Below are positions 4,450 through 48,217 of a stretch of DNA of 64,000 bases, in pieces (position 1 is the first letter of the stretch; every line of letters starts with the position of its first letter). The translations under genes and the position numbers were made by a program. The notes under the pieces were generated by a model, which had not been told where the DNA came from, searched no databases, and saw only the letters and a program-made list of their open reading frames with translations. Source of the stretch: Symbiodinium sp. CCMP2592 (taxonomy: Eukaryota; Sar; Dinophyceae; Suessiales; Symbiodiniaceae); assembly GCA_905221615.1 (NCBI GenBank), contig CAJNDT010000588.1, positions 25,246-89,245 of the forward strand, written 5' to 3'.

Positions 4450-4480
4450 GCTGAGCTGCTACCACTACTACTACTAGTAC

Positions 4481-4540
<60 letters not shown>

Positions 4541-4572
4541 TAGTAGTAGTAGTCGTAGTAGTAGTAGTAGTC

Positions 4573-4625
<53 letters not shown>

Positions 4626-4626: not shown

Positions 4627-4856
4627 TTTTGCCTCCTGCATGGCTGAGTACACGAAGCAGGGAGTCAACACCAGGATGTATGTAGATCCTGGAAGAACAT
4701 GTGGTGCCTCAGCAGCTTGCCATTACTTCTGCCAGTCTTGCATCCCTTAGGGCTGTGAGACCTCTTGCAGACTGCTCGCAGGTAACTTCTCCTCAACTTC
4801 CTAACTCGACGGACCACCCTGTGCTAAAGTGCCCTACCTGTGCCTTTCGAGGGATC

Positions 4857-7800
4857 ATGGAGCCAGCCTCTGAGCATAGCTGGCCAAACTGGCAGGCAGC
4901 ACTTGTTCCGCTTACAGTCGGGACAGAAGTGGAGGTGACTGATGGCCACAGACAGCACCTTATAGGCCGCCGGGCGATTGTGCTCCCTACCTTGGAGTGC
5001 GATCGCAACACCACCCGGAATGTGCGGATGATACAAGGACCTCGAGCTGAACAACGACGTATCTATACGATCGACAGGGAACACCTCGTTCCCCGACTGG
5101 GGTCGGAGGCTACACAAGCTTCCATGTGTGATGGAATGGAGCCGAGTCTGAGGTGGAGATGTGCACCCCCACCATTAACCATCTTCAGCGCACGTTACCT
5201 TCTTGGCTACCAGGCCCTGGCGACCATGGTGCCCCCGGCGGCACCCAAACGGAGTCCAGCTGGCCACTATGTCCATCCCCCGCTGGAAGATGCTTCGCTT
5301 GAGGCACCCTGGGAAAAACACGCTGACCCAGCTAGCAATCGGCCCTTCTACTACCACCCGGGGACAAAGCAGGTGACTTGGCGAAAACCACGGCCGGCTC
5401 TGGTCCTTCCGAGGGAAGAGGAGATTGGGCCCACCAAGCCCAGGCGAGGCAGGTCTGAGATACCCCAGCCGCGCACTCCTAGCCCACCTCCTTCCAAGCG
5501 GGTGAGAATGCATCCCACCACTGATGCTCGGCAGAGAACTATGAGCTCTGAGGCCCAGTCGTCAAGCTCTACTGCAGCCAAAGGGATGCCAACCGCAGAG
5601 AGGAAGCCCGCTCCGGACTTTGATCCTCAATCTTCTGGTGGCGCTTCCGAGTGGAACTTGGCCGATCATGCTTTACCTGCCACCCCAGACCGGGTACTGC
5701 TCTGGGGAGCCAAAGCCAGGTCACAGCTACCACAACCGCCCAGTGCCCCTGCCTGCACTTTGGACGTGGAAAGATTTCTCAAGAGTTTCTTCAGGACACG
5801 GCAAGGCCCAGATGGCACATCCCTTGCAACCTTACTTGGCGACCCGGCCCCGCAACCTGATGGTTGGTGGCGTGTCCCGTGGACACCGCTGGGACCCTCG
5901 CACTGCGAGCTGCTGTGTCAGGGTGGTTGGCAACGTGGCTGGCACGGATGCAAGATGGAGGCACTATACTCCATCATTTACCATGGACAGCTTCTGCCGA
6001 GCATCGATGAGTCGAAGGGTGACAGGTTCCTGGCAGGCTGTCCAGGGGTGTACTTGCACCGAGACAGCCTGCAGCACAAGGTGGAGAACTACATGAGATG
6101 GATACCACTATGTGGAGACGGTCTCTTTTGGGCTGCCAAGTGGGAGGTGGTGTATGCTCCCTCGGGGAGCACTAAGCATGGCAAGCGAACTGATCAGGTT
6201 ATACAAAGTGCTGAATCGGTGGAGCTGGTAGCCCTCTGGCTCTCGGTGCGCTCCGAGAACATGCTGCCTGACGGGACTGCTGTGCAGGCCAAATGGACTC
6301 CTGAACGTGAGGCCAATCCACGCCTTACTCAGTCCAGGCGAAGAAGCAGTGCTCTGATACAGACCATGGACCTCACGGAACCGTCTGCCTCTTCCAGGCC
6401 TCTGCCCAGCTCCAGCCTGAGTTCTGACCCGGCGATCGACAACAAAGGCCGACTCAAGCCGACGCCTAAAACACGAGGTCGCTTGTCACACATCCCTTCT
6501 GAATTGGAGAAGGACCGGACGCCAGCACAAGCGAAGCTCACCATACAGTCGGGCAATCTGGTGCTGAAGTCGGCCACAGCAAATAGCTTGGAGGCTACGA
6601 CTGCTACGACAACCACTCCGGCTGCCACCTCGGAAGTCTCGCCCCAACAGCCCCCGTCAGATCTACCTCGCCGAGGACCCAAACGGGCTCGACCTGACAC
6701 TTCCCCTGCCACTCCGAAGCCACGGAAGATGCAGACAAGGCCCAAGCCGAGACGATCGATTTGGTTTGATGTCACAGACAATCCGGATGACCAACCACTC
6801 TCGTCCTCCATAGCTACAGCCAAAGGCCGAAGCACTGGTACGATCAAGGCCGCCAAGCTCCAAGATCGTGTCCGCAGAAGGATGGCCAGGAAGATGGAGG
6901 AAATCTTCCAGGCCAATAGAGCCGCTGGACTCAACACGGACTCAGCTGCCTCATCCAGTGCTGCATACAAGGATCCAGCTTACAGTTCATCATGTCAGCG
7001 TCTGCATCAGCTTGGTCAGTCTTGCAAGAGACAACACATGCCCCTTTCACTTAGACCTGCCATGCTCTTTGCCTTCGCCCCTCTAAGGTCCAGCCCACCA
7101 GTGGCTCCGACAGGCCAAGTTGACACAGGCGGGGATCGCTTTACTGAGCGCTTGGCGTTGCAGACCTCTGCACCTAGGTCCGGGCAGCCACCTAGGTGGG
7201 TTCCCTGCTTACAAACCTTTGTTGCTCCCTCCACTGGCTACTGCCTGCAACACTTGCGGCTATCAGGCTCGTGTCTGCCGACATGTCGGATGCCCGACGG
7301 CAAGCCCGGATCCTCGCAGGTCCCTTTGTTACCCTGCTGGGGCTTTGAAAGGCCACTGAGCCCTTTCACATGTGCCTATCCAGGCCTTGAACGACCAGTG
7401 TGCACATCTACCACCATGCCGGCCGGGCTCACATGGACCTACGGTGCCTCCCCACACCGTGATGATTATCGATGTGCTGTGACTCGAGGTATGCCAGCTG
7501 CACTGGCAACAGGTCCTTTTCTGTTGCACGCTCACTGCACAATTGCTGTTCAATCTAGTCACCACACCTGGCAGGGGTGGCCGGATGCTTTCCTGACTGA
7601 CCAACCTGAACACTGTCTGGTGTGCCTTCGACACACCAGACCATCTGCTGGTCCTGCTTCGGTACGATGCCCACCTCCACCACCAGGAGCTGGTTTACAA
7701 CCCGACGGGCTCTCAGTTCTTGCGACCGTCACTCCCAGGAGGACGATAGCTCCATCTAGCTGTTCTTCCAGCCTGCCTCCAGGTCTGTCTTCGCCACTGG

Positions 7801-8372
7801 GCGCAGGCCAGAGGGTCGAGCAGGCATCACTCTGGGACTCCTACTTGTCCAACTTGTGCAGGATATCCCGGGCACGTGGCTTGCCTATCGTCTGGCGGAC
7901 CCATGCTGTGAGTGGTGTCGGCTTGAGTACCGTAGATGTACACCATATGCCACCCGTATGCAACAAACCAGCACCTCGCAGGCTAACAAGATCAGATCCC
8001 GCGAGCCTGACTCTGAAGTGCAGTTGCAACACAAAGTCTCCCACACGGCACTGGACCTGCACACTATGGATTAGCTGTGTAGACAGTCTGCTGCACCGCA
8101 CTCCGATGCCGGTGCAAGCATTTTTGTCAACATGGACAACTAGCACTATAAGGTGCCCCTCTCATATTCTCAACACACCTGCTCTGAGCTACTCCGGTCC
8201 CAATCCCGGAGACCGACATTTTCGTACGGCTGACAACCTGTCATCTTTCAGACACCAGCTGGTTGTCCATCTAGCCTCCGAACAGTCGGTAGGGGCGAGG
8301 GTTGTGAGCGGCCACGAGACCGAAACTCACCTTCGTGGTGAGGGACGGGAAGCCGTGGCAGGAGCCCAATGA
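4857..8372 (+). CDS. LINE-A ORF1: WW-domain protein with ADP-ribosyltransferase-like segment
   Basis: About 1171 aa from the first in-frame ATG (4857); the frame is open further upstream to a GTG at 4701. (i) An N-terminal region of about 110 aa conserved in LINE-B (LTVGTEVEV, GHRQHLIGRRAIVLPT, YTIDRE). (ii) A WW domain at about residues 150-180 with both Trp, a DP turn and a Tyr-Tyr core (PFYYHPGTKQVTWRKP). (iii) Residues about 357-473, with GWHGCKMEALYSIIYHGQL, PGVYLH and a VENYMRW stretch, laid out like PARP/ART folds (HG..., GxYL...). This is a weak assignment, and the segment is absent from LINE-B. (iv) A basic segment, RRRMARKMEEIFQANRAAGL, near residues 675-695, conserved in LINE-B and probably nucleic-acid binding. 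The last 400 or so residues are poorly conserved in this frame. By analogy with other LINEs, ORF1 should bind element RNA; that is inference. Confidence 0.75.
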   Translation: MEPASEHSWPNWQAALVPLTVGTEVEVTDGHRQHLIGRRAIVLPTLECDRNTTRNVRMIQGPRAEQRRIYTIDREHLVPRLGSEATQASMCDGMEPSLRWRCAPPPLTIFSARYLLGYQALATMVPPAAPKRSPAGHYVHPPLEDASLEAPWEKHADPASNRPFYYHPGTKQVTWRKPRPALVLPREEEIGPTKPRRGRSEIPQPRTPSPPPSKRVRMHPTTDARQRTMSSEAQSSSSTAAKGMPTAERKPAPDFDPQSSGGASEWNLADHALPATPDRVLLWGAKARSQLPQPPSAPACTLDVERFLKSFFRTRQGPDGTSLATLLGDPAPQPDGWWRVPWTPLGPSHCELLCQGGWQRGWHGCKMEALYSIIYHGQLLPSIDESKGDRFLAGCPGVYLHRDSLQHKVENYMRWIPLCGDGLFWAAKWEVVYAPSGSTKHGKRTDQVIQSAESVELVALWLSVRSENMLPDGTAVQAKWTPEREANPRLTQSRRRSSALIQTMDLTEPSASSRPLPSSSLSSDPAIDNKGRLKPTPKTRGRLSHIPSELEKDRTPAQAKLTIQSGNLVLKSATANSLEATTATTTTPAATSEVSPQQPPSDLPRRGPKRARPDTSPATPKPRKMQTRPKPRRSIWFDVTDNPDDQPLSSSIATAKGRSTGTIKAAKLQDRVRRRMARKMEEIFQANRAAGLNTDSAASSSAAYKDPAYSSSCQRLHQLGQSCKRQHMPLSLRPAMLFAFAPLRSSPPVAPTGQVDTGGDRFTERLALQTSAPRSGQPPRWVPCLQTFVAPSTGYCLQHLRLSGSCLPTCRMPDGKPGSSQVPLLPCWGFERPLSPFTCAYPGLERPVCTSTTMPAGLTWTYGASPHRDDYRCAVTRGMPAALATGPFLLHAHCTIAVQSSHHTWQGWPDAFLTDQPEHCLVCLRHTRPSAGPASVRCPPPPPGAGLQPDGLSVLATVTPRRTIAPSSCSSSLPPGLSSPLGAGQRVEQASLWDSYLSNLCRISRARGLPIVWRTHAVSGVGLSTVDVHHMPPVCNKPAPRRLTRSDPASLTLKCSCNTKSPTRHWTCTLWISCVDSLLHRTPMPVQAFLSTWTTSTIRCPSHILNTPALSYSGPNPGDRHFRTADNLSSFRHQLVVHLASEQSVGARVVSGHETETHLRGEGREAVAGAQ
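7758..8074 (+). other. Alternate-frame conserved segment inside LINE-A ORF1
   Basis: In the frame -1 to ORF1, a stretch reads VQDIPGTWLAYRLADPCCEW then CRLEYRRCTPY. LINE-B (about 20537-20761) encodes QDIPGTRLAYRMADPRCAWC then RFHFRRSTPH in the same relative frame, while the ORF1 frame itself is not conserved there. The Cys spacing suggests a small metal-binding motif. Either the true ORF1 end shifts frame, or a separate small overlapping ORF exists. Confidence 0.45.
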
Positions 8373-8581
8373 ACTACACTCTGCTGTGAGGGCAGTCTTG
8401 CGGGACCCCCCACAAAACCACACTATTCGCTCTGACCCAGGAGTCACTCTAGGCATTGCCTGTTCCCCTAGCCTGACCTCCTCTCCGTTCTCAGCCATCT
8501 GTTCATCGTGGGCTGGTCCGAGCGACCAGACTGCAGGTCCCTGTGGCGTGCCAAATAGCATGGACAAGCTGCTGCCAGGAT

Positions 8582-11500
8582 ATGCTCCACCCCAGTCAAA
8601 GCCCCGGTATTTCTTCCTCTACAAACAGGGTCTACCTATTCGTCTTGTTGCCATCTGGGCTCCAGCACTTCTACACCTTACCTCTCCTGGCCTTCCTCGT
8701 TTTAGGAGGCCTCCCTCTGGAGTACAACCACCAACACCTGCAACCCGACCTATCCACACCGCTGACAGGTGTCGTCCTCCGTCGACCACTGATCGACCTA
8801 GTCAGGCCCCTGGCACGTCGACGCACCCTAAGCCCTCGTCCTATTTTGTTTCTCTCGACTCTGTTAGCCCTCCCAAGGTCGATCTGGGGAGTGCCTTCTG
8901 CACACCCCCTGCACTCTCCAGTAGCGAGTCACTCAGGCGAACTCAGGCCGGTTGCAGTCAACCCCACTGAGTACACATTTGCCAGGAAGCGATCTTACAA
9001 ACGTGCCTTACGTCGTGCTGCACAGGACCAGGCCCAGCATACGGTTTATCGAGGCCGTGTCTGTACCCTGCAACAGCTTTGCAAAGGCTATCGGGGCCAT
9101 CGACCCGCCCCCCAGGCTGAGCGTCGTATGCAGCAGGCCGCTCTGAAAGTCTCCCAGGGACGCTTGTTGTTCCTCTCCTGGAATGCTGGAGGATTGTCCC
9201 AGGCCCTGTGGCAGGAATTCTTGTTAACACTTGAGAATATGCCACCTGACGATCGACCCCAGATCGTGTGTGTTCAAGAAACTCACTGGACGGATAAGGT
9301 GGCACCCCAATTCCCCACTGCTACGTGGGATGTGTACACCTCCCCGACCACTGACAACAAATCTGCTGGGCTCCTGATTCTCCTCAACAAGCAGACTACC
9401 CGTAACTGCAGAATTGTCTACGCCGACCCTCAATCGGGTAGGGTGCAACACCTGAGGATACTCCATGACCAATGGGCAGTCGACCTGCTGCACATCTATC
9501 AAAAGCCGCGCAACTCTCATCCACTCGCCCTGCAATCCTCCAAAACCATTCGCTTAGCTGTTTGGGAGTGCATTGGTAAGATCCTGGCGGCTCTACCTGC
9601 CCGCAACACGGTGATCATGCTTGGAGATTTTAATACCCAGATCAAGCCATGTGCTGCAGCTGGCACCAGGATCTGTTCAGGCAACAGCTCGGGAACACAT
9701 CCACCTGATCAGGCACGGTTGCAGCATCTTGTCGAGGACTTCTCCCTCCTACATCTCAACTCATGGTGCAAGGCTGCTGGCCCCACGTACCATCACAACA
9801 AAGGTGCCAGCCTCATTGACCATATCATCATGCGTTCTTGCCAAGCGGATGACCGTGCTCGGCAGGCTAAACCTCTCCGCCTGGGACTAGCTGCATGGAG
9901 ACTTGGTGGCTACCATTTACCACTGAAGGCCAGTATTCCGCTTCAGCGCTTCCACACTCTCAACAAACCGGTGGCACCCAAACGGACATGGGATCATTGG
10001 GGCTTGATTCAGGTTTGCCGCTCTGCTTGGGATCCGCGAGTACACAGTCTACGTACTGCCGTCCAGGCATCCCTACCTGGGGTCATTGATCTTGGGCAAT
10101 TACATGCTACTCTGATTCACTGTGCATCCCAATTTTTCCCGCCGCCCACAGGTCAGCATCGGCTAGCACTGTGGCAGACACCACCAATGCAAGATGGTAT
10201 CCGATCCATGTGGCAGGCCTACCGAGCCTGGAAGACTGCCAAATCTCAAGATCGGCACAATCCGCTTTATGTATCCAGGTGCTATCATCACTTCAAGACG
10301 GCACACAAGGCCTTTCGTCAAGCCGGGAAAGAAGCTAAGAAGCACTGGTTCCATGGCAGGCTCCAGGAATTACAGGCTGCCGCCTGTTCGAGTGACTCCC
10401 GCAAACTTTATGCTGGCATCCGCACCCTAGCTCCTAAATCCTCCAAGCCGAAGGTTCAACTGCGCGATTCTGGTGGTCATCTGCAGGACCCTAAGATCCA
10501 GCTACAACAGCTGGAAACGCAGTATCGTAAACTATATGCTGCAGACGAGGATACCAGCATCCAGGGCCCCCAGCGGACACCCATTCACATCGAGGTCACG
10601 GAGGCCGAAATGACCCTGGCACTTTCGCAATTGTCGCCCCACAAAGCTACACCTCCGAATCTAGCCACAAACTCTCTATGGAGGCTGACCTCGGACATTG
10701 TCGCGCCTCTCTTGTGCCAATGGTGCCGGCAATGGCCTCATATACCAGAGCTTTGGCGGAATGCATGGTTGACTCTCGTTCCGAAGATTCCGCGACCACT
10801 CTCACCCAAGAATCTCAGACCAATAGGGTTAACTGAATCCAGCGGCCGCGCATATGCTTCCATACTTCAGGCGAAACTGCGCCCCTATGCAGAGAGGTTC
10901 CTTACGGACCAGGCACAATTTGCATATCTACCGGGTCGCAATGCTGCTCAAGCCATACATCGTGTTGCTGCTCACTGCAAGTATGTCCAGGATCGCTGCT
11001 CGATCTCAACACCCACGGTTGTGGATCGTCACGCACAACAACCGAAACCCTGCCCACATTTTGCAGGTGCACAACTCTCACTGGACTTGTCCAGCGCTTT
11101 CGACCTCATGGACTGGCGCTTGCTGGACAAGGCATTACTTGCATCTGCAGTCCCGGCTGAGTTAAGACACCAAATCATGTCCTGGCACTCCGAGATTTCC
11201 TATGTCCTTACCCACCTTGGGCACACTGCCAAAGTGGAGGCCCAAAGAGGACTTAGACAAGGGTGTAAACTGGCTCCGTTGCTCTGGACACTTGCCCTGG
11301 CACAGATATATCGTGAGCTCCTTGCAGAGGGGGACTCGCTCCTCACAGCCCCTTGGCTAGAGCAAAGCTCCACGATTTATGCAGATGATATACATCTTAA
11401 AGATACCGTGCAGAACACTCGTGAGCTGGACGACATGGTGTATCGCTTTAGTAAGATCCTCGATGCTCTTGCTGCCCATGGTATGGTCATCAACCCGGCC

Positions 11501-14500
11501 AAATCAGCACTGTTGCTGAGACACAAGGGAAGTTTCATCAAAGGCTGGCTGCGACGACATCTCATACACAAACCCGAGGGAGATCTACTACGCTTTCGTA
11601 GCCCCCTGGGAAAGGTGTATGAAATTCCGTTGCGTGACCATCACACGTACTTAGGCATTCGCATCTCATATCATTCCCAGGCCAAACAAGCAGTCACCTA
11701 TCGGCTACAGGCTGCGAACCAGGCATGGCAAAGACTTCGTGGTGTACTGTGCTCTACCAGGCACCTTGCTCAGACACATCGTCTCAGTCTATGGAAATCC
11801 ACAGTGCTTCCCACGCTGCTCTACGGCATAGCGGCATCCAACCCAGGTGCCAAGGATATCCAGCGTATGCAGCACATGATGACCAAGCAGGTTCGAGCCA
11901 TCACCCGATCTTTTGCACATCTTCAGAAAGAATCCACACACGACCTCCTGCACAGATGCTCTCTGTTTACCATCTTGGAGCATCTCCAGAGGGAAGCCGC
12001 CGCCTTGCATCGCAGCTTGACTGGCCTGAGTACCCAAACGAGCTTCGTGACCCAAGCCCAGGTGGAAACAGCTCGAGACACAGCTGCTACGCTCCACCTA
12101 CAGGTGCAACGCCAATGGCAGGTACCTCTCGGTGACAAAGAAGGCATCACTGACCCTGCAGTACACCAGTGCCAGGAATGTCATCGGGTCTTCACCTCCT
12201 TTCGGCTACTCCGCTCTCACGAGGCTAAGTGGCATGGACTCAAGACACCTGCTGCTGTCCCGGTGCCTTTTGATAGGTATGCACATGGAACAGAAGGACT
12301 TCCAACGTGCAGACATTGTGCCCATCCCTTCCGACAATGGGACGGACTTGTCAAACACATCAAACGCAATCGGTGCCAGGTACTCCGTAGACTTGCCACA
12401 CAACCTCCTGCTGATGCCCAACCCTTGGCTCCGAGATGCAATGAATCCGATCCTTTACCAGTCCTTGCATCGGTCACCCTGCCACCTCAGGACTCCTCTC
12501 AGGAGACGCACATCCTACAAGAAGCTCAGGCTGCTACGCCTACTCCTATTCTTGTCGTTATACCTGAACCCCCTGTCACAGACGCTCCACTGCAGGACAG
12601 CTCCACTACACCGAGCCATGAGGCTGTTCCCCTTCATCAGCATTCTCATGTTCTCGCAACGCTACGTGCACGCAGGTGGACTGACCTCCTTGAGAAGCCG
12701 GAGATTCAATCGTATCTCCAGCACCACTGCCCGCTGTGTTACCAGTGGCTAGCCACTCCTACCAGCATCAAGTATCATCTCACCATGCAACATCCAGAGT
12801 GGAAAGACTGCCAACCTGCGACTCTCAAGCTCCTTACTGGTTTCCGCCGACATACTGTAGTTCCATGTCGCTACTGTCATCAGCGAAACATCAACAAAGA
12901 TCGACATTGGAAACAGTGTCATGTCCTGCATATCTGTGCATTTCTAGCAGCGCATCATGACGCTCACCGCGGATCCCATGGAGCTGGACGAACAGGAGAG
13001 GCAATTTTGGGCCCAGGCTGGTCCGGTCAAACGGGAACAGGAACCGAGAAGAGATATGCTGCAACAAGCCGAGCAATCCAAGAGGCAGCGTCTGGCACCG
13101 CAGGACCGGAACAAGGGCAAGGGCAAGGGTACCAAGGGCAAAGGCAAGGGAAAGCAGGGCCTACCAAGTCCACCCAGTGCACACCCGACCATGGGTTACA
13201 CAAATGGTTTCGGAAGCCATCCACCCAATCCATGGACACAGACACAGGACCTGCAGCCACTGGGAAGTCAGGATCCAGAATGGATGGAGTACAGGATGAA
13301 TCGACTATCTCAGCTGGTCCTTCGTCAGGAGCAAATCATCTCAGCCATCCGTCAGGATCTGGTCCTCTACCTCTTTGTACGATCAGGACCAGAAGGGATG
13401 GTGCCAGTTCTATGCGAAGCAGCGGAGAAGTGGAGGAAGATGAAAGAGGAAGAACCCGAGAAGATCACTTACTCCCTCAAACTCATGCTATTCAAGCAAC
13501 TGCTCATCACCCTACACCAGAGGTTGACCAACATGATCGGGGACGAGGATGCTCGCGCCAAAGCCAAGAACCTGAACTGGATCGACGATCAGAAACATTG
13601 GAAACATCTCACATGGAATCCTTCCAAACAATGTCTGGAAGTCGACAACTCAGTGAGGCCAATACCGGCGGAGGATCTGTTGGCCCAACTGGTTCAGATG
13701 AGGAAGGCTGTTACGGAGGAGACCCTGGTGAGGTTCAAGTCCATGCGGAAGCTCACCACGGAGGTGACCTCCGACTGGATCCAATTCCAGATCTGCTTGT
13801 CACTTCGCCCAGAGGGAGGAGCCATGTGGAGTACGCTGAACCAGTGGATCGGTCAAGCATCGTGGCACACACTGGGATGCAGGCTCCGTCGCGATCGACC
13901 GAACTACGACACCCTGGTCCAGGAAGTGTGGCAACATCAGATGCCATACTGAGTGTGCGCCCTAGTCTCAAGGCCGTCCTTCGATTGATCTTCCACAATC
14001 CATCGAATTTGTGCTACCTACACTCTACCATCTATGCCCTTCTGTGGACAATCCTTCAGGCTAGTCTACACGATGCCTACATCTCGCCTCCACCGCAGGC
14101 TCTTACTATGCTGTGTCCACCAATCACTGATTCGCCTAATTGTCCCATTCAGGTGCTCCATTCGGTACCGTGGCTTATGCTGCTGCAAGCTTGGCCTTCT
14201 GTACATCGTCAGCATGATGCAGCTGAGTTGATACAATACCTCTTACCCAGGTTTTCGCATAGTGGGTTCAATGGTGGCTGGGAGGCCAGAAACTTTGCAC
14301 CTGGAGGTATTGTCACTCTTGATACGGGGCCTACCCAAGCTCCAATTACGATTGTGCTACCGGCAGGTCCAAGCTTGGAGCTTCAGGCAGCCATTGATGG
14401 GTGGAGTGCTCAGGTCACAGCCCGTTATGCACTGCTGACCCCGTCTCCCATGCTCTGCATACAACTTCAGCGCTTCGCGAATGCCGAGGGAGTCATGCGC

Positions 14501-14794
14501 AGGGACACCAGACCACTGGCTGTGGCCTCGACTACAGTTCGTATGCCACTCTTTACAGGACTGCACACTATGCAAGTTCGCTATGTTCACTACCAGGTCG
14601 TCGCAGTACAGCTTCACTACGGGGCCACTCCTGATATGGGGCATTACAGAACTATCCTACGAGGACAGCCGCTGTTTGGTGCAGAAAAATGGTGGATCAC
14701 TGACGACTCCTGCACAGCAAAGTCAGTTGGCACAGAACACGATGGCAACATATACACTGTGTGGCTACGTCAGGTACTTCCTCCTGGTGCCTGA
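8582..14794 (+). CDS. LINE-A ORF2: APE endonuclease - reverse transcriptase - C2H2 zinc fingers - USP-like protease
   Basis: About 2070 aa from the first in-frame ATG; the frame is open to a GTG at 8543. The EEP/APE endonuclease shows WNAGG (N201), QETHW (E233), LGDFN (D349), SLIDH (D413/H414) and a late GGYHLPL. The reverse transcriptase shows motif A SLDLSSAFD (D835, D841), motif B RGLRQGCKLAPLLW and motif C YADD (Y933-D936). Residues about 1195-1450 hold four C2H2/C2HC fingers (CQECHRVF...H, CRHCAHPF...H, CPLCYQW...H, CRYC...H...C), a common LINE feature for target or RNA binding. About 330 codons of low-complexity sequence follow, where ORF3 overlaps in another frame. The end (residues about 1800-2065) is USP-like: NPSNLCYLHS (Cys1811), QHDAAELIQYLLPR, MGHYRTIL (His2021) and WWITDDS (Asp2041/2042). 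EN and RT are certain. The USP call is strong by motif order. Whether the protein is made as one chain is unknown. Confidence 0.9.
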   Translation: MLHPSQSPGISSSTNRVYLFVLLPSGLQHFYTLPLLAFLVLGGLPLEYNHQHLQPDLSTPLTGVVLRRPLIDLVRPLARRRTLSPRPILFLSTLLALPRSIWGVPSAHPLHSPVASHSGELRPVAVNPTEYTFARKRSYKRALRRAAQDQAQHTVYRGRVCTLQQLCKGYRGHRPAPQAERRMQQAALKVSQGRLLFLSWNAGGLSQALWQEFLLTLENMPPDDRPQIVCVQETHWTDKVAPQFPTATWDVYTSPTTDNKSAGLLILLNKQTTRNCRIVYADPQSGRVQHLRILHDQWAVDLLHIYQKPRNSHPLALQSSKTIRLAVWECIGKILAALPARNTVIMLGDFNTQIKPCAAAGTRICSGNSSGTHPPDQARLQHLVEDFSLLHLNSWCKAAGPTYHHNKGASLIDHIIMRSCQADDRARQAKPLRLGLAAWRLGGYHLPLKASIPLQRFHTLNKPVAPKRTWDHWGLIQVCRSAWDPRVHSLRTAVQASLPGVIDLGQLHATLIHCASQFFPPPTGQHRLALWQTPPMQDGIRSMWQAYRAWKTAKSQDRHNPLYVSRCYHHFKTAHKAFRQAGKEAKKHWFHGRLQELQAAACSSDSRKLYAGIRTLAPKSSKPKVQLRDSGGHLQDPKIQLQQLETQYRKLYAADEDTSIQGPQRTPIHIEVTEAEMTLALSQLSPHKATPPNLATNSLWRLTSDIVAPLLCQWCRQWPHIPELWRNAWLTLVPKIPRPLSPKNLRPIGLTESSGRAYASILQAKLRPYAERFLTDQAQFAYLPGRNAAQAIHRVAAHCKYVQDRCSISTPTVVDRHAQQPKPCPHFAGAQLSLDLSSAFDLMDWRLLDKALLASAVPAELRHQIMSWHSEISYVLTHLGHTAKVEAQRGLRQGCKLAPLLWTLALAQIYRELLAEGDSLLTAPWLEQSSTIYADDIHLKDTVQNTRELDDMVYRFSKILDALAAHGMVINPAKSALLLRHKGSFIKGWLRRHLIHKPEGDLLRFRSPLGKVYEIPLRDHHTYLGIRISYHSQAKQAVTYRLQAANQAWQRLRGVLCSTRHLAQTHRLSLWKSTVLPTLLYGIAASNPGAKDIQRMQHMMTKQVRAITRSFAHLQKESTHDLLHRCSLFTILEHLQREAAALHRSLTGLSTQTSFVTQAQVETARDTAATLHLQVQRQWQVPLGDKEGITDPAVHQCQECHRVFTSFRLLRSHEAKWHGLKTPAAVPVPFDRYAHGTEGLPTCRHCAHPFRQWDGLVKHIKRNRCQVLRRLATQPPADAQPLAPRCNESDPLPVLASVTLPPQDSSQETHILQEAQAATPTPILVVIPEPPVTDAPLQDSSTTPSHEAVPLHQHSHVLATLRARRWTDLLEKPEIQSYLQHHCPLCYQWLATPTSIKYHLTMQHPEWKDCQPATLKLLTGFRRHTVVPCRYCHQRNINKDRHWKQCHVLHICAFLAAHHDAHRGSHGAGRTGEAILGPGWSGQTGTGTEKRYAATSRAIQEAASGTAGPEQGQGQGYQGQRQGKAGPTKSTQCTPDHGLHKWFRKPSTQSMDTDTGPAATGKSGSRMDGVQDESTISAGPSSGANHLSHPSGSGPLPLCTIRTRRDGASSMRSSGEVEEDERGRTREDHLLPQTHAIQATAHHPTPEVDQHDRGRGCSRQSQEPELDRRSETLETSHMESFQTMSGSRQLSEANTGGGSVGPTGSDEEGCYGGDPGEVQVHAEAHHGGDLRLDPIPDLLVTSPRGRSHVEYAEPVDRSSIVAHTGMQAPSRSTELRHPGPGSVATSDAILSVRPSLKAVLRLIFHNPSNLCYLHSTIYALLWTILQASLHDAYISPPPQALTMLCPPITDSPNCPIQVLHSVPWLMLLQAWPSVHRQHDAAELIQYLLPRFSHSGFNGGWEARNFAPGGIVTLDTGPTQAPITIVLPAGPSLELQAAIDGWSAQVTARYALLTPSPMLCIQLQRFANAEGVMRRDTRPLAVASTTVRMPLFTGLHTMQVRYVHYQVVAVQLHYGATPDMGHYRTILRGQPLFGAEKWWITDDSCTAKSVGTEHDGNIYTVWLRQVLPPGA
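12957..13952 (+). CDS. LINE-A ORF3: basic coiled-coil protein overlapping ORF2 in the +1 frame
   Basis: 331 aa from an ATG that overlaps the end of the zinc-finger part of ORF2. The N-terminal third holds a Lys/Gly run (KGKGKGTKGKGKGKQG) and probably binds nucleic acid. A Leu/Gln-rich helical region follows (MNRLSQLVLRQEQIISAIRQD) with LYLFVRSGPEG, then a conserved second half (LNWIDD, WKHLTWNPS, AEDLLAQLVQMRKAV, DWIQFQICLSLRP, WSTLNQWIGQASWH). LINE-B has the same protein starting at the equivalent ATG (25503), also +1 to its ORF2. Conservation between the two elements tracks this frame, not the ORF2 frame, so ORF3 is the real coding frame here. It ends in TGA at 13950. The USP-like region starts about 45 bp later in the -1 frame relative to ORF3. 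No known family recognised. Confidence 0.8.
   Translation: MTLTADPMELDEQERQFWAQAGPVKREQEPRRDMLQQAEQSKRQRLAPQDRNKGKGKGTKGKGKGKQGLPSPPSAHPTMGYTNGFGSHPPNPWTQTQDLQPLGSQDPEWMEYRMNRLSQLVLRQEQIISAIRQDLVLYLFVRSGPEGMVPVLCEAAEKWRKMKEEEPEKITYSLKLMLFKQLLITLHQRLTNMIGDEDARAKAKNLNWIDDQKHWKHLTWNPSKQCLEVDNSVRPIPAEDLLAQLVQMRKAVTEETLVRFKSMRKLTTEVTSDWIQFQICLSLRPEGGAMWSTLNQWIGQASWHTLGCRLRRDRPNYDTLVQEVWQHQMPY
13970..14794 (+). other. USP (C19)-like deubiquitinase domain at the end of LINE-A ORF2
   Basis: Domain entry for the part of ORF2 coding the protease. Cys box: FHNPSNLCYLHSTIYALLW, Cys codon at 14012-14014. QQD/E-box analogue: HRQHDAAELIQYLLPRF near 14206. His box: LHYGATPDMGHYRTIL, His codon 14642-14644. 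Acidic residues: WWITDDS at about 14690-14710. This follows the canonical USP order (NxGNxCYxNS; QQDAxEF; GHYxAY; WxxFDD). All four are kept in LINE-B (HNPHNHCYMHT, QQHDICEFLGYLLPR, EGHYRAVL, WHTDDG), although that element is otherwise decaying. The Zn-binding CxxC pairs of many USPs are not seen, and at about 260 aa the domain is small for the family. Confidence 0.7.
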
Positions 14795-14943
14795 CGCTGA
14801 GCAAGTGTAGTCTTAGTAGATGGAGCTGGCACTGCCCTCCAGAACCCAACAGAGGTTCCGATACCCCGAATACCGGGTTATCGTCAGCTCGCTAGGCGAA
14901 CCCGGACACTTCACTGCGTGGTGAATGAATGCTACTGCTACTA
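14795..14943 (+). other. LINE-A 3' UTR and (GCTACT)n tail
   Basis: About 135 bp of non-coding sequence ends GTGGTGAATGAATGCTACTG and then CTACTA. The last 60 bp are similar to the 3' end of LINE-B, so this is probably the region recognised by the RT during target-primed reverse transcription. The tail here is only about 13 bp of GCTACT units. Confidence 0.7.
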
Positions 14944-15885: not shown

Positions 15886-16212
15886 GCCGAGAGGCGGGTT
15901 AGGTCTTGAACAGCTTTTCTGCAGAACTGGCACCAAGACGGATGTATGTGACCACAGCCAGCCCTCTGCTGTCTCTTCCTGCATGCTGACCTGTCTGAGC
16001 CTGCGATCTGTACCTCGCAACCTTTCGGACGGCACCAACAAGTGCCGTGCTGCGCCTGTCAGTGAACTAGAGCTGCCACACCCCTGGCTCATGACACTGC
16101 CGCTGCAGAAGACAGTCGCGCGTGTCACTTGCATTGCTCAGGTTGCTCCCATGGCGAGTTATGGTGCCACCGAGAAGGCTCCAGGTCGGAGCTATGCACC
16201 GCCTGCTGCCAG

Positions 16213-17733
16213 GCTCCCTCTGCCTTGTGTGTCTCGCCTCAGGCTCCGAGACCTTCACAGTGCCCTCCTCGCCCGACATCTTGCCACAGTCTGGGCCTCA
16301 GCTTCGCTACTTGAGCTCGCCGTCAGCCAACTTGCACCTTTACAGTGTCCATGCACGAGCTCCACTGCCCTGCACCATGGTAGCCATGTGCACCTGCAGC
16401 CCTTTCGCTCCAGAGCACCACCAGGGCTTCTTTGGGACTCCGTGGCACATCATTTGCCGACCAATGCAGTTGCCTGGCCCCGGGATACGTGTCCTCTTGC
16501 AAACAGCATACAAGAGACTTCCTATGGCTGCTCCTCACACCTGATTGGCCGCCTGGCACTACACCACCCCTCCTGTGCTTCTTCTTCTGCCATGGCCTCG
16601 ACCCCCACTGCCAGCACACCTCGTTCACAGCGATCACAGGGCAGTACCGCTGAGCTCTATGAGAAGGACGGGCTCACTGCAGAGGTCCAGGAAGAGGAGC
16701 CAGCCTCCGGGCACAACTGGCACAACTGGCAGGCTGCCATGACTCCTTTAACGGTCGGAACAGAAGTGGAGGTGGTTGGCGGCCACAGACAACATCTCAT
16801 AGGCCGCCGTGCGATCGTGCTCCCTACCACTGGGTGCGATCAAAGCACAACAAGGAATTTGAGGATGTTACAAGGGCCGAGATCCGAGCAGACCCGCGTC
16901 TACACGATTGATCGGGAAAATCTTATTCCCCGCCTGCGGCCGGAAGCCACTCGGGCTTCAATGGACGACGGCATGCTGCCGAGCATGCGCTGGAGGTATG
17001 CTCCTCCTCCACTGACAAGGTTCTCGGCCCGCTTTCTTCTGGGCTGGTCTCCAATGAAGTTCCTTGTCCCCCCGCCCGCGGGACCGGACTGGAGCGTGGG
17101 CACATTCTCCTCTGGCGATCTCGCTTCCGCGGCCTTGGACAGCACATTTGGACCCCGAGACAAAGGGCATCGCGTATTACAATGAGCTGACAAAAGAGGT
17201 CACGTGGCGGAAGCCGACCGAGCCACTCCGGCTTCCTAAGGAGACAGAGCTGGAGGTTCCTGCAGACTCGGGTGTGCCAGCCCCGGTTACTCCACCGACT
17301 GCCGGGCCGGATGTGGATGATCGTGGCAGACTTCGTCCTAAGCCGAAGACCAGGACAGCAGCTGCCATTGATCGACCCAGCTTCGATGAGAGACTTCGGA
17401 AAAGGCCTCGCTCGCCAGATCGGCCCACCAAGCTGACGACGGCACCGGGGCCAGCTCATATCCCTTCCGAGATAGAGCGGGATCAGACGCCAGTGGAAGC
17501 CAAGCTTACGATTCAATCTGGCAACTTTCTGAGGTCAGCATCGGCCAATGACAAGGATGCGGAGGCCGCACTTCCGATGGATCCGAGCCAGAACGACCAG
17601 GAGGCACACCCAGCGGAGCCGAATGCAGACAAACCGCCGGGCCTCGCTGGCACTGTCACGGCGGCTGTATCCCAGGACAAGCCGGCTTCTTCTCGGCTCA
17701 CCACCCAGCGGGCCAAGAGGGTGAAGGCCACAG
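16213..17733 (+). repeat. 1521-bp tandem duplication, first unit (LINE-B ORF1)
   Basis: This segment repeats directly at 17734-19254 with a constant offset of 1521 bp and only a handful of differences (for example cttcAcag/cttcGcag and GGGG/GGTG in a CCGGxGCC context). The junction lies at a CAGGCTC shared by both ends, which suggests microhomology-mediated duplication. The unit holds the N-terminal ORF1 region, a frameshift near 17060-17150 and the WW domain, so the frameshift predates the duplication. Confidence 0.9.
16592..17185 (+). pseudogene. LINE-B ORF1 N-terminal region, first duplicate, frameshifted
   Basis: From ATG (MASTPTASTPRSQ) the frame encodes the N-terminal region shared with LINE-A ORF1 (LTVGTEVEVVGGHRQHLIGR, YTIDRENLIPRL, FSARFLLGW). 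It then runs out of frame at about 17060-17150. The WW domain (AYYNELTKEVTWRKP) follows in another frame (17064-17733), which runs into the start of the second duplicate unit. Confidence 0.7.
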
Positions 17734-19254
17734 GCTCGCTCTGCCTTGTGTGTCTCGCCTCAGGCTCCGAGACCTTCGCAGTGCCCTCCTCGCCCGACAT
17801 CTTGCCACAGTCTGGGCCTCAGCTTCGCTACTTGAGCTCGCCGTCAGCCAACTTGCACCTTTACAGTGTCCATGCACGAGCTCCACTGCCCTGCACCATG
17901 GTAGCCATGTGCACCTGCAGCCCTTTCGCTCCAGAGCACCACCAGGGCTTCTTTGGGACTCCGTGGCACATCATTTGCCGACCAATGCAGTTGCCTGGCC
18001 CCGGGATACGTGTCCTCTTGCAAACAGCATACAAGAGACTTCCTATGGCTGCTCCTCACACCTGATTGGCCGCCTGGCACTACACCACCCCTCCTGTGCT
18101 TCTTCTTCTGCCATGGCCTCGACCCCCACTGCCAGCACACCTCGTTCACAGCGATCACAGGGCAGTACCGCTGAGCTCTATGAGAAGGACGGGCTCACTG
18201 CAGAGGTCCAGGAAGAGGAGCCAGCCTCCGGGCACAACTGGCACAACTGGCAGGCTGCCATGACTCCTTTAACGGTCGGAACAGAAGTGGAGGTGGTTGG
18301 CGGCCACAGACAACATCTCATAGGCCGCCGTGCGATCGTGCTCCCTACCACTGGGTGCGATCAAAGCACAACAAGGAATTTGAGGATGTTACAAGGGCCG
18401 AGATCCGAGCAGACCCGCGTCTACACGATTGATCGGGAAAATCTTATTCCCCGCCTGCGGCCGGAAGCCACTCGGGCTTCAATGGACGACGGCATGCTGC
18501 CGAGCATGCGCTGGAGGTATGCTCCTCCTCCACTGACAAGGTTCTCGGCCCGCTTTCTTCTGGGCTGGTCTCCAATGAAGTTCCTTGTCCCCCCGCCCGC
18601 GGGACCGGACTGGAGCGTGGGCACATTCTCCTCTGGCGATCTCGCTTCCGCGGCCTTGGACAGCACATTTGGACCCCGAGACAAAGGGCATCGCGTATTA
18701 CAATGAGCTGACAAAAGAGGTCACGTGGCGGAAGCCGACCGAGCCACTCCGGCTTCCTAAGGAGACAGAGCTGGAGGTTCCTGCAGACTCGGGTGTGCCA
18801 GCCCCGGTTACTCCACCGACTGCCGGGCCGGATGTGGATGATCGTGGCAGACTTCGTCCTAAGCCGAAGACCAGGACAGCAGCTGCCATTGATCGACCCA
18901 GCTTCGATGAGAGACTTCGGAAAAGGCCTCGCTCGCCAGATCGGCCCACCAAGCTGACGACGGCACCGGTGCCAGCTCATATCCCTTCCGAGATAGAGCG
19001 GGATCAGACGCCAGTGGAAGCCAAGCTTACGATTCAATCTGGCAACTTTCTGAGGTCAGCATCGGCCAATGACAAGGATGCGGAGGCCGCACTTCCGATG
19101 GATCCGAGCCAGAACGACCAGGAGGCACACCCAGCGGAGCCGAATGCAGACAAACCGCCGGGCCTCGCTGGCACTGTCACGGCGGCTGTATCCCAGGACA
19201 AGCCGGCTTCTTCTCGGCTCACTACCAAGCGGGCCAAGAGGGTGAAGGCCACAG
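17734..19254 (+). repeat. 1521-bp tandem duplication, second unit (LINE-B ORF1)
   Basis: Near-identical to 16213-17733. The 3' end continues without a break into the rest of ORF1 (GSRKTRSPQRP...), so this unit is joined to the original downstream sequence. Confidence 0.9.
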
Positions 19255-20780
19255 GCTCGCGGAAGACTCGCTCCCCGCAGCGTCCTCGGACCACTTCGAT
19301 TTGGTTCAACATTGAAGAGGACCAGGATGACAAGCTGCCTCCGCCCTCTTCTTCTTCCTCCACCAAGGGTCGGAAAAATGCCGCGACCAAGGATGCCAAG
19401 CTCAACGACCGCATTCGAAGAAGGATGGCCAGGAAGATGGAGGAAATTTTTCAGGCCAATCGAGCCGCAGGACTCAGCAAGGACTCTGTCGCTCCATCCA
19501 GTGCTGCATACGAGGACCGAGAGTGCAGTCTGCCCTGCAAGAGAGTGCATCTGCCTCCCGACAGGCACCTTCCCAGAGGATACCCCTTCTCTCTGCTCAG
19601 GTTCGACCTCAACCCAGCTGACAGCTCCTCAGGCCTGAGAGTACAGCTGAGTGATTGTCTAGCTTGTTGGCAGTCCTCCTGCAGGGGACTCCGCATGCGC
19701 CTGGCTCACGCCCACACCCAGGCTGACATACCACATGGCTCAAGTATGAACTGTCACCTGCCACAGAGCCAAGGGACCCAGCCGATGCTGCTTTGTCCTC
19801 AGCTGCCTGGAGGCGTGCCCGCCAGAGTACTGCCTTCGGGATCGAACCTGTCATGTACTCTCGCCTATGCCGCCTCAGCTGACAATGTGGGAGCCACCTC
19901 TCCCGAGTACTCATCCTTCAGGCGTATTACTGACCGACATGCGGCCTCTACCGGTGGCAAAGGCCTTGGCTACCCCGTCTGGGGTCACTCTGCATGCCGT
20001 CTGCCGTCTTGTCTCTCCTATGGCAGGTCCGCCTGTGTCCTCCGAGTCTGTGCTGGCGTCCCAGCTCAGTTGCACCACTTGCAAGGTCCATCAACCTGCC
20101 CTGGGCCAGGAACATGGGTCAGAATGCCACCGATGCGAAGCAAGAGGCCAGTATCTTGGCAGGCCCTCCTCGACACCTTATACGTTCTTGAGTGTTCTGG
20201 CTTCTTGTTATGGGACCTGTCAACAGGGCTGATCGCACCGCCTCGCACGTCGTCCTCCATACCGGTTTGCCTGCTACACTGGCAACAGGGCTGGCCGGAT
20301 GCCTATCAAGTCGGACCCTCTGAAATTTGTGCGGTGTGCTCGCGTCTGCCGCGGCCTGGCATCAACTCGGCCTTCGCGGCCAGCCTGCCTCATGATCCCA
20401 GTTCTGGACTTCAGGCCGTCGGCTCCCCAGACATCTGGATAGATTGCCAGCCGCACTTCTGTTATCCATATGGTCTCGGCTTAGGTCTGTCAAACCCACT
20501 GGGCCCAGGCGAGAGAGCAACAGTCCATGCCAGTAACATGAGCTCTGGAAATGCATGGTCCGCCCCCAGGACATCCCTGGCACCCGTTTGGCTTACAGAA
20601 TGGCTGACCCTCGGTGTGCTTGGTGCAGATTTCACTTTCGACGAAGTACCCCGCACCAGCTCCCCTTCCAACGTAGACCCAGATCTGTCACCAATAAGAT
20701 GGGGCTCGACCAGATTGGAAGCAAACTGCACCTGGGCCGAACTGTCCGAGTCTCTTTTTGACCTGGAAGCGATGGACTAG
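18117..20780 (+). pseudogene. LINE-B ORF1 (second duplicate and C-terminal part)
   Basis: An N-terminal part in one frame (about 18117-18706) and, after the shared frameshift, a long frame to 20780. It contains the WW domain (HLDPETKGIAYYNELTKEV then TWRKP), a DRGRLRPKPKTR/HIPSEIERDQTP/KLTIQSGN region and the basic RRRMARKMEEIFQANRAAGL segment, all matching LINE-A. The ART-like segment of LINE-A is missing: WW is followed within about 30 residues by the DRGRLRPKP part. The C-terminal 400 residues show only islands of similarity (GWPDAY...E.C.VC; GLSNPLG.GER). An alternate-frame conserved segment lies at about 20537-20761. Confidence 0.7.
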
Positions 20781-25502: not shown

Positions 25503-26454
25503 ATGACTCCGTTCACCCTCGATCAGATGGACCTGGACACGGACGAGGCCAAATTTTTCGGGCAACCAGATCTGGGGACTCTGCCGCCCACCAAGCGGCA
25601 GCGCCCGAAGGGGGGCTTTTCGACACATCCGATGATCAAGGGAAAAGGCAAAGGGAAGAAAGGGAAAGGAAAGGGCAAAGCGCCGACTCCTCCGCCGACC
25701 TGGGACTACACAAATGGTTCCGACCAGTGGGACAACCCGTGGCCCACCCAGGTCGCAACGCCGGCCAATCATCACTACATCGGAGAGACCGAGTACTACT
25801 ACCAGCAGCACCTGCAGAATCTCACTCGACTCGTGCTGCAACAGGAACAGACCATTGCCTCCCTGAGACAGGATATCACCCTTTACCTCTTTGTCAAGAC
25901 CGGCCAGGGCAGCATAGTGTCTCTGCTCCACCAAACGGCAGAGAAGTGGCGAGCCGAGAAGGAGAAAACGCCGTGCACCCTGACGCACTCTCTGAAGATC
26001 GCGATGTTCAAACAGCTGATGATAGAGATGCATGGTCGCTTGGCTGCAGTGGCCAAAAATCCATCCGAGACCGAAAAAGCCAAGAAGCTCAACTGGCTGG
26101 ACGATCGCGGAAATTGGAGAATCCTCAAATGGGACCCAGTAAAATGGAGCTGCAAGTGGACGAGAGCCAGCCGGCAGCGAGCACGGACGACCTCCTCAAG
26201 CAGACCGTGGAGATGCGGAAGAGCGTGTGCGAGGAGGCATTGCATCGCTGAGATAGAAGAGGATGACGGACCAACCCACGTCCGAATGGATCCAGTTCCG
26301 CATGGAGATCTCATTGAGGCCACTGGGCGACCCTGTATGGTCCACCCTCCAGAAGTGGATCGGTCAATCGGCGTGGCATCTGCTAGGATGCAGATTGCGG
26401 AAGGAGCGCCCGCAATTCAATACCCTGGTGGACCAAGTACGCCAGGGACTTTGA
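25503..26454 (+). pseudogene. LINE-B ORF3 (basic coiled-coil protein), frameshifted near its end
   Basis: It starts at ATG 25503 (MTPFTLDQMDLDTDEAKFF), aligned with LINE-A's ORF3 start, and carries KGKGKGKKGKGKGKAP, LVLQQEQTIASLRQDITLYL, FVKTGQGS and LNWLDDRGNWRILKWDP. Frame changes occur near 26150 and 26250; the remaining parts (DDLLKQTVEMRKSVCEEAL, then EWIQFRMEISLRP and WSTLQKWIGQSAWH) are in the other frames, ending QVRQGL-stop at 26454. The conserved start and body show that ORF3 is a normal part of this LINE family. Confidence 0.8.
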
Positions 26455-27323
26455 TCCAGGGCCGCGACCTCAGTCTTAGCCAGGTTCTGCGCATGCAATT
26501 CCACAACCCTCACAACCACTGCTACATGCACACCTCCATATATACCCTCCTTTGGACGATTCTGCAACTGCGCAGACACGGCAACCACAGTCCAGCACTC
26601 CACAAGTGCTTTGATACCCTTGTCTCAGACTCCATGCGGACTGCCTCCTCCATTCAGGTAGCTCGCCTTCTGCCTTGGCGGATGCTGCTTGGGCAGTGGC
26701 CACAGATCAATCAGCAGCATGACATATGCGAATTCCTCGGCTATCTTCTACCCAGGTGCCTTAGCTGGCCTGTTGACCATGAGGCTCCAAGCTGGGAGGC
26801 CCGACGCTTCCGGAATAGCCAACTCAGTGTGTTAGATCGGGGACCTGCCTGCCTTCCCATCCCCATTCCTCTTTGCACAGGTGATACATGTCATCTGCAG
26901 TGGTGCGTGGATGCATAGCACAGGCAATCCTGCATTCACGCCCTTACCGCCCCTGCACCCTTCCTGTGTCTGCAGCTACTGCGATTTCACAATGAGGAGG
27001 GGAGGATGCAACGCGACCTACGGCCTCTGAAAGGCCACATGTCCACAGTGCATATGCCTGTCTTCCATGCCGACAATGCCGAGCTTCGCAATGAACTGAT
27101 ATGCACCCATGCACCGTACCAGGTCGTGGCTTTGCATTTTGGGGACGCACCAACTGAGGGGCACTACCGAGCTGTGCTGAATGGCCAGCCTTTCTATGGA
27201 GCTGACAAAAGCTGGCACACTGACGATGGCAGAGTTGCGCGCAGTTGCACATCAGATGATCACGACATGCACCGCACTGCAGCTTATGTGATTTGGCTTC
27301 GTGACGAGCCAGGATTGTGCTGA
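26455..27323 (+). pseudogene. LINE-B USP-like domain with one in-frame stop
   Basis: It reads QFHNPHNHCYMHTSIYTLLW (Cys codon at 26520), INQQHDICEFLGYLLPR, then a TAG at 26916-26918. It continues in the same frame with PFLCLQLLRFHNEEGRM, YQVVALHFGDAPTEGHYRAV and KSWHTDDG. The frame relation to ORF3 is -1, as in LINE-A. The protease-type residues are all kept despite the stop, which supports past selection on this domain. Confidence 0.75.
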
Positions 27324-27472: not shown

Positions 27473-27620
27473 ATGCTACTGCTACTGCTACTGCTACTGC
27501 TACTGCTACTGCTACTACTACTACGACGACAACTACTACTCCTACTTCTACTATTGCTACGACGACGTACACTACTGCCACGTCTACACATGCATACTAC
27601 CGCGACGACTACCACTACCA
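27473..27620. repeat. (GCTACT)n / CTA-ACT-rich tail of LINE-B
   Basis: About 45 bp of perfect GCTACT units after GAATGAAT are followed by about 100 bp of degenerate CTA/CGA/ACT triplets. It is the 3' tail of LINE-B or the microsatellite it inserted into. Confidence 0.85.
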
Positions 27621-41496: not shown

Positions 41497-41990
41497 GATA
41501 GTTGAAACCCAGGTTACACTCGAAACCCTCGTTACCAAACCACCTAAATCCTTAAAGCCCCCCTGTACACCCTGTAAATTCCTTAAGCAAAGCACACACC
41601 AAAACTTGACAGGACCCTTCAATGCACCCGGATGACCCTTGGATGCAACGATCAGGCCAGGCACTGCATCTAAGGGTGTTTTGTGTGCATCCAAGGGTCA
41701 ATTGCTGAAACCCAGGTTACACTCGAAACCCTCGACACCAAGCCACCTTTATCCTAAACCCCACCCTGTACCACCTGTATTCCTTCAGCAAAGCACACAC
41801 CAAAACTTGAAAGGACCCTTCAATGCACCCGGATGACCCTTGGATGCAACGATCAGGCCAGGCACTGCATCTAAGGGTGTTTTGTGTGCATCCAAGGGTC
41901 ATTGAGGGGTACTGGTCTGGTGGGATCATCGCCGTTGCTTCTGTCCCAGTTCCAGTCACTCGTCGCGAAGTTTGAAGTTGTCAGCAAGTG
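41497..41990. repeat. Repeat R, copies 2 and 3 in tandem
   Basis: Two consecutive units (about 41497-41700 and 41701-41990), each beginning GAAACCCAGGTTACACTCGA and containing CAATGCACCCGGATGACCCT and GCATCTAAGGGTGTTTTGTG. The second continues into the region directly upstream of the methyltransferase start, so it may contain its promoter. Confidence 0.9.
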
Positions 41991-42090
41991 CAGCAATTTA
42001 AACGTTACCGTTGCATTCAAGGCTCCAGGCACCCAGGCACCCAGGCACCCAGGCTCTCAGGCTCCAAGGCCCAGTAGAGTCGCTGCCGCC

Positions 42091-47864: not shown

Positions 47865-48217
47865 GAGAGAAACACGGTCGAGATTCGCTCCCGAGCAGAG
47901 CGCGCCTTGCAAAACATGAATGCAGCAGCCCTCATGCGCTGTGGACTCACTTGCGACTACAAATCTGAGTGCCTGGGTTTCTTGCGCAGGAACTTTGACA
48001 TTGAGGATCCAGATGTATCCTGCACCCCCAGAGTGCTGGAAGAGTTCACCAAGCGCCAGCGGTTCTTATTTGTGGATGGATACATCCTCTCCGACAGCTC
48101 GCAGGTTCCCAGTTCCGTGGACGGCTCCGAGGCTCCAGGCTCCCAGGCTCCCAGGAGGTGTGCAACCCAGTTAGTTTACGAGGAGATCCAGACACCAGAG
48201 CCGCAACTACCCTGCAA

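Follow-up and report, generated by a model that had tools for sequence, protein, structure and literature searches.

Dualen long interspersed nuclear elements (LINEs) carry a protease of the OTU family, which is distinct from the ubiquitin-specific proteases (USPs), and a paper on Helentrons reportedly describes mobile elements with OTU-type proteases; Ulp1, another protease met in such elements, has a role connected with SUMO. According to PMC4640811, the nematode non-long-terminal-repeat (non-LTR) retrotransposons NeSL and Utopia-1_TSP possess an N-terminal Ulp1-like protease and a restriction-like endonuclease (RLE), and Dualen/RandI elements possess both apurinic-like (APE) and RLE endonucleases. 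In SymbioLINE-Dnmt of Symbiodinium, a DNA methyltransferase (DNMT) is encoded in the first open reading frame, ORF1, and the words ubiquitin and protease are absent from the main text of the paper describing it (PMC5890265). Here, we analyze a stretch of 64,000 nucleotides of Symbiodinium sp. CCMP2592 (contig CAJNDT010000588.1, positions 25,246 to 89,245 of the forward strand; hereafter, the window), which holds a LINE, LINE-A, at ~4.6-14.95 kb, followed by a second, damaged one, LINE-B, at ~15-27.55 kb. As judged from the sequence and a predicted structure, the C-terminal part of the LINE-A ORF2 protein is a USP (C19) domain whose catalytic residues are all in place, the domain order being endonuclease (EN), reverse transcriptase (RT), four C2H2-like fingers, a linker and the USP. 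EN and RT with a YxDD motif reside in a single ORF, in keeping with an APE-type non-LTR retrotransposon (LINE). A tblastn search with five USP and two RT queries recognized LINE-A and LINE-B as the only copies in the window.

The USP-like domain: motifs, predicted catalytic residues and fold

An earlier note on this DNA had placed the Cys, Q/E, His and Asp boxes of USPs behind the RT and the fingers, and all four occur in that order in both LINEs. In the ORF2 frame of LINE-A they read NPSNLCYLHSTIYALLW, QHDAAELIQYLLPR, GHYRTIL and WITDD, and in LINE-B NPHNHCYMHTSIYTLLW, QHDICEFLGYLLPR, GHYRAVL and WHTDD; the last box is common to both elements, with the pattern WxTDD and not WxxTDD, as had been written. 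The key residues were also said to survive in LINE-B despite its lesions, and every one of them is kept in the alignment, the lesions being frame-breaking indels relative to LINE-A and an in-frame TAG at 26916-26918.

Protein database searches yielded 16 distinct relatives, labelled P0002 to P0017. In a 15-row alignment, Asn10, Cys15 and Gln81 (numbered within the domain) are kept in 14 of the 14 rows covering those boxes, and His225 is likewise kept in 14 of 14, the gene model of P0013 ending early. For these first three boxes P0009 (with G at position 10) was set aside because its gene model skips that part, and the partial gene models P0004, P0007, P0010 and the first USP fragment of P0008 were omitted from the count. 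The third catalytic residue of USPs is Asp or Asn, with a conserved Asp next to it; in the present family position 245 is occupied by Asp in nine and by Asn in four of 13 rows, and Asp246 is found in 13/13. We take Asn10 to be the oxyanion-hole residue and Asp245 to be the third catalytic one, the roles of Asp245 and Asp246 being presumed after known USPs. Across the 12 full-domain rows, 24 of 274 positions are invariant. With positions taken as exchangeable, the chance that positions 10, 15 and 225 are all invariant is 6.0e-4, and it is 3.4e-6 for positions 10, 15, 81, 225 and 246, the estimate leaving out Asp245 (Asp or Asn, hence not invariant). The Cys, His and Asp positions, on whose conservation across family copies the earlier proposal had been staked, are therefore conserved in divergent copies too, and the refuting result is absent.

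The Pfam model UCH (PF00443) matched the USP segment searched alone beyond chance expectation, with 31.1 bits (E 2.4e-7, cut-off 23.9), whereas the other model suggested for this check, PF13423, gave no match at E<=1. The matched stretch covers domain residues 78-252 in LINE-A, not reaching the Cys box, and begins ahead of that box in P0006 and P0012. At E<=1, UCH matches all nine members of alignment A2, including P0015 and P0016, which carry no precomputed UCH label. A family profile of seven domains, searched against PDB at E<=1, matched 91 distinct sequences (best E 2.8e-8); the best 60 of these 91 are all named ubiquitin carboxyl-terminal hydrolases, with the highest scores for USP36, USP46 and USP12. 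In the profile alignments, Asn10 and Cys15 fall on the corresponding Asn and Cys residues in USP36 and USP46, the QHD box stands opposite their QED/QQD box and GHY opposite GHY, and Asp246 is matched by an Asp of USP36. In structure searches the predicted structure of the domain displayed the USP fold, in line with what had been expected of it. Judging by these residues and this model, the domain is quite probably an active deubiquitinase.

Relatives, co-inheritance with the RT and selection

RT and USP (from the Cys box to the His box) occur in one chain in seven relatives (P0002, P0003, P0005, P0006, P0012, P0015 and P0016), and P0009 combines RT with the His box, the Cys box being absent from its gene model. 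The closest public proteins to the LINE-A USP, both from Symbiodinium sp. CCMP2592, are P0002 and P0003 (96 and 94% identity over the whole USP); the named hosts of the relatives are Symbiodinium sp. CCMP2592 and CCMP2456, and in public records both Pfam domains, RT and UCH, already stand on proteins named Pol. P0005, P0014 and P0017 represent 25, 7 and 32 member sequences, respectively. Across the relatives, RT and USP identities to LINE-A drop together (RT/USP, %: P0002 98/96, P0003 97/94, P0005 77/50, P0006 58/43, P0012 56/44, LINE-B 47/41, P0015 33/28, P0016 33/28). As RT identity goes down to 33%, deeply separated LINE groups, recognized here by identity and not by a tree, have this C-terminal domain in common, and in these predicted proteins the USP is a long co-inherited companion of the RT. 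A pattern scan of viral contigs with alignment A1 gave 59 pattern matches and no relatives, and a single-protein scan of prokaryote genome contigs gave 24 pattern matches and no relatives. P0008, besides its fragment of this USP, contains at the end of the CCMP2592 gene model (residues ~1226-1433) another USP-like domain, which is incomplete, differs from the first and has its nearest matches in P0016 and P0015 (32% identity), so more than one USP-bearing lineage may be present in the CCMP2592 genome.

A further expectation of the earlier note was purifying selection on the USP segment across copies. Between LINE-A and LINE-B the proportions of nonsynonymous and synonymous differences (pN and pS) in the USP are 0.404 and 0.710, and the ratio of the respective substitution rates (dN/dS) is 0.26, compared with 0.90 and 1.37 for the same DNA in two wrong frames; these ratios are only indicative, because dS is close to saturated and the bootstrap upper limits are open. 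For RT and EN, pN is 0.371 and 0.383, with pS saturated in both. LINE-B is a decayed copy, and constraint is therefore harder to see in this comparison.

ORF-M and the overprinted linker

Between the fingers and the USP, out of the ORF2 frame, lies a second ORF, designated ORF-M, a point absent from the earlier note. It was found in five of five gene models compared (53-98% identity) and as a relic in LINE-B. Between LINE-A and LINE-B, dN/dS is 0.27 in the ORF-M frame versus 1.63 in the ORF2 frame of the same DNA, where amino acid identity is 26%; hence the constrained protein is apparently ORF-M and not the linker peptide. ORF-M has a basic Gly-Lys-rich stretch, gave no Pfam match above the cut-off and a best E of 0.54 against PDB, and its AlphaFold model is too poor for use (pLDDT 43.0, pTM 0.38).

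Over ORF-M, the ORF2 frame of LINE-A contains no stops versus 11.1 expected from codon permutation within ORF-M (0 of 20,000 permutations), and that of LINE-B none versus 5.5 (10 of 20,000; 200 codons ahead of the first indel); a codon-usage simulation gives expectations of 17.1 and 10.7 (0 of 5,000 each). Other coding stretches of the window show a general stop deficit in the same relative frame (45 vs 58.6, 13 vs 17.3, 10 vs 11.3, 49 vs 57.6, 15 vs 18.2 and 11 vs 16.5, i.e., 0.67-0.89 of the permutation expectation), so that ~7-10 stops, rather than 11.1, are a fairer expectation for the linker. Rejection by the permutation test is seen as well in frames for which we make no claim, namely the third one of ORF-M (11 vs 16.6; 102 of 20,000) and one USP off-frame (3 vs 8.2; 11 of 3,000), but these off-frames with low counts still contain stops, and the ORF2 frame alone has none. 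In the reverse test, the ORF-M frame has no stops versus 4.2 expected (55 of 20,000).

Continuous ORF2-frame linkers of 359-363 amino acids are present in P0005, P0006, P0011, P0012 and P0013, although predicted proteins cannot reveal stops, and they are therefore weaker evidence than the DNA test. Back-translated in the right frame, these five linkers give an ORF-M-like protein scoring 371-501 against LINE-A ORF-M, with eight shuffles of each reaching at most 43; for P0005, P0006 and P0012, none of 200 shuffles exceeded 59, and the alternative shift scored 27-40, inside its shuffle range. The signal is weaker in P0014 (66 and 56, scores that 0 and 1 of 200 shuffles attained) and P0017 (48 and 63; 2 and 0 of 200), and for P0016 the right-frame scores are 55 and 42 (0 and 14 of 200) and the wrong-frame ones 45 and 38 (9 and 18 of 200). 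Because the linker is stop-free in the ORF2 frame though overprinted by ORF-M, the RT-USP fusion looks selected, with selection apparently holding the two domains together in a single chain despite the overprinted gene. The linker would thus represent, within a LINE, a conserved stretch of considerable length that codes in two frames, and sequence alone would allow one to test whether RT and USP must be physically joined.

Possible role of the domain

As the joining stretch is stop-free despite the second ORF, the USP most likely belongs to the same chain as EN and RT. In the mechanism that we favor, the USP would be translated in one chain with both enzymes, a host ligase would ubiquitinate the ORF2 protein or its ribonucleoprotein (RNP), the USP domain would strip this ubiquitin in cis, and the deubiquitinated RNP would persist long enough for a new copy to be inserted. 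We give such action in cis on the element's own ORF2 protein or RNP about an even chance. A published motive for countering ubiquitination exists in mammals, since TRIM41 attaches ubiquitin to human L1 ORF2p and favors its degradation (PMC10716122), and UBR2 and TEX19.1 have been linked to ubiquitination of L1 ORF1p (PMC5570191). The predicted domain and its position suggest that the element could undo the cellular mark for destruction.

Several points weigh against this interpretation. In the whole 2083-residue ORF2, UCH scores 23.3 bits, just below its cut-off of 23.9; the LINE-A domain alone matches PDB weakly (best E 0.025, USP46), and in the PDB profile search the Cys-box stretch does not reach significance by itself (independent E-values of 0.17 to 4.3 in the four alignments displayed). 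The structure model was built on an alignment of 10 rows, and its residues 1-9 and 36-66, within the first 80, have pLDDT <50. LINE-B is evidence that copies decay. We know of no ubiquitin-based control of LINEs in dinoflagellates, and the USP could equally target host proteins.

An active deubiquitinase could thus work in trans on host factors at the insertion site, such as ubiquitin marks on chromatin, repair factors or a restriction pathway. Being C-terminal to the RT and the fingers, the USP could reach target chromatin, and the structure-search matches include the chromatin and repair enzymes SAGA Ubp8 and USP1; still, we regard this as rather unlikely, as neither sequence nor structure identified a substrate and cis action accounts no less well for the fusion to the RT.

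The great length of ORF2 might also speak for a polyprotein-processing protease cutting between its modules, the more so as papain-like proteases of some RNA viruses perform both processing and deubiquitination, and a single LRGG, the sequence in which ubiquitin ends, is present in each of P0015 and P0016 (residue 925) and P0017 (residue 14). These sites, however, lie in or beside the stretch aligned with the LINE-A RT region and not between modules, LRGG is lacking in LINE-A, P0005, P0006, P0012 and P0013, and USPs are specific for folded ubiquitin, all of which makes processing improbable. Cleavage at GG sites was considered as well and dropped: in nine sequences, seven of them ORF2-type, the linker GG pairs are scattered, and no shared place, hence no shared candidate between modules, was seen.

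Alternatively, the USP might be produced as a separate protein by frameshift, splicing or an internal start, the fused frame being incidental. A second ORF does overlap the linker, and the proteins P0002, P0003 and P0004 exit the ORF2 frame, cross part of ORF-M and re-enter the USP, a path that resembles, on protein sequences only, introns placed by gene predictors. Against this stand the open joining frame in LINE-A (judged by the corrected expectation) and in LINE-B and, with less weight, the five continuous linkers, and we strongly doubt this explanation. Although inactive USP-fold proteins exist and one of 50 VIA-align rows is the tri-snRNP chain 6qw6_U, which we take to be the inactive Sad1/USP39, a pseudo-USP able to bind but not to cleave ubiquitin is very hard to reconcile with Cys, His, Asp/Asn and the oxyanion Asn in all covering rows, residues needless in a pseudo-enzyme.

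Returning to the removal of ubiquitin in cis, we tentatively advance, at somewhat less than even confidence, a joint reading in which an old dinoflagellate set of LINEs would carry its own deubiquitinase as a counter-defence, and one DNA stretch would serve both as a separate protein (ORF-M) and as the tether of the deubiquitinase to the reverse transcriptase. If true, ubiquitin-dependent restriction of LINE proteins would be an ancient selective force outside animals, and the RT-fused deubiquitinase would offer a direct handle on ubiquitin control of LINEs outside mammals and on the transposon's answer to it.

Layout of the elements and other features of the window

Coordinates are collected in Table 1. 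Pfam matches of C2H2 models over the LINE-A fingers remained under the cut-off. ORF1 of LINE-B (18585-20780) also has a WW match, at 25.9 bits, just below the cut-off of 26.9. As read from the sequence, the 3' ends of both elements are TGCTAC-type repeats, and a TAG microsatellite (4475-4625) lies on the 5' side of LINE-A; these elements may have a preference for trinucleotide repeats. The 5' part of LINE-B contains a 300-nt direct repeat (16210-16509 / 17731-18030, 99%, spacing 1521).

Table 1. Features of LINE-A and LINE-B, in window coordinates unless residues are given.
Feature	Position	Strand	Basis or remark
LINE-A ORF1	4701..8372	+	ORF list; 1223 codons from first listed start
WW domain of LINE-A ORF1	residues 200-230		Pfam WW 31.6 bits, cut-off 26.9
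LINE-A ORF2	8543..14794	+	2083 codons from first listed start (GTG)
Apurinic-like endonuclease domain (PF03372)	9173..9838	+	28.4 bits, cut-off 24.5
Reverse transcriptase domain (PF00078)	10787..11533	+	E 6.7e-20; YADD at residue 946
Four C2H2/C2HC-like finger motifs	12170..12937	+	Motif scan; order matches P0012 and P0015
Linker in ORF2 frame, fingers to USP	12938..13969	+	Amino acids poorly conserved; stop-free
ORF-M, overlapping nested ORF, 331 codons	12957..13952	+	Second frame; conserved
USP-like (C19) domain, ORF2 residues 1810-2083	13970..14791	+	Pfam, predicted structure, PDB profile
Asn, domain residue 10 (Cys minus 5)	13997..13999	+	Aligned with Asn of USP36/USP46
Predicted catalytic Cys, domain residue 15	14012..14014	+	PDB profile, 15-row alignment
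Gln of QHD box, domain residue 81	14210..14212	+	PDB profile, 15-row alignment
Predicted catalytic His, domain residue 225 (GHY)	14642..14644	+	PDB profile, 15-row alignment
Asp245 (Asp/Asn in relatives) and invariant Asp246	14702..14707	+	15-row alignment
LINE-B ORF-M relic	25503..26150	+	ATG to first frame-breaking indel
LINE-B USP domain copy	26484..27305	+	41% identical to LINE-A; in-frame stop
LINE-B 3' tail, TGCTAC repeats	27474..27552	+	LINE-A: short similar tail near 14930

Elsewhere in the window, an ORF at 41884-43701 encodes a C5 cytosine methyltransferase domain (PF00145, E 4.9e-18) and is possibly one of the Symbiodinium retrotransposon-borne DNMTs. Two pairs of direct repeats of 99% identity (45374-45673 / 51501-51800, spacing 6127; 47794-48093 / 53967-54266, spacing 6173), together with paired near-identical ORFs, point to a recent tandem duplication. 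The ORF at 62430-63740 encodes a protein kinase domain (E 4.4e-24); its HMG-box match stays under the cut-off.

Comparison with known systems

Among the literature matches listed, none reported a USP in a LINE by title and abstract opening, Repbase not being covered. With eukaryotic USPs (C19, PF00443) the LINE-A domain shares the predicted fold, the order of boxes, Cys-His-Asp/Asn, the oxyanion Asn and the QHD box; in contrast to them it is compact (274 amino acids), 12-21% identical in the structure alignments shown, and forms the C-terminal part of a LINE ORF2 product. LINE-A resembles SymbioLINE-Dnmt (PMC5890265) in being a Symbiodinium LINE with an added enzyme domain, but its ORF1 (4701-8369) gave only WW and no DNMT match in a Pfam scan at E<=1. 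In common with OTU-bearing mobile elements, it has a deubiquitinase-type protease in a mobile element. Of the two endonuclease types combined in Dualen/RandI, LINE-A shows an APE, and Pfam at E<=1 matched no RLE. NeSL and Utopia-1_TSP, as presented in PMC4640811, similarly have a cysteine protease of the modifier-removing type inside a LINE ORF; LINE-A differs from them in its C-terminal USP and apurinic-like endonuclease (PF03372), and its ORF2 gave no Ulp1 match in Pfam at E<=1. Taken together, cysteine proteases of other families are known in LINEs, whereas the protease predicted here is a USP.
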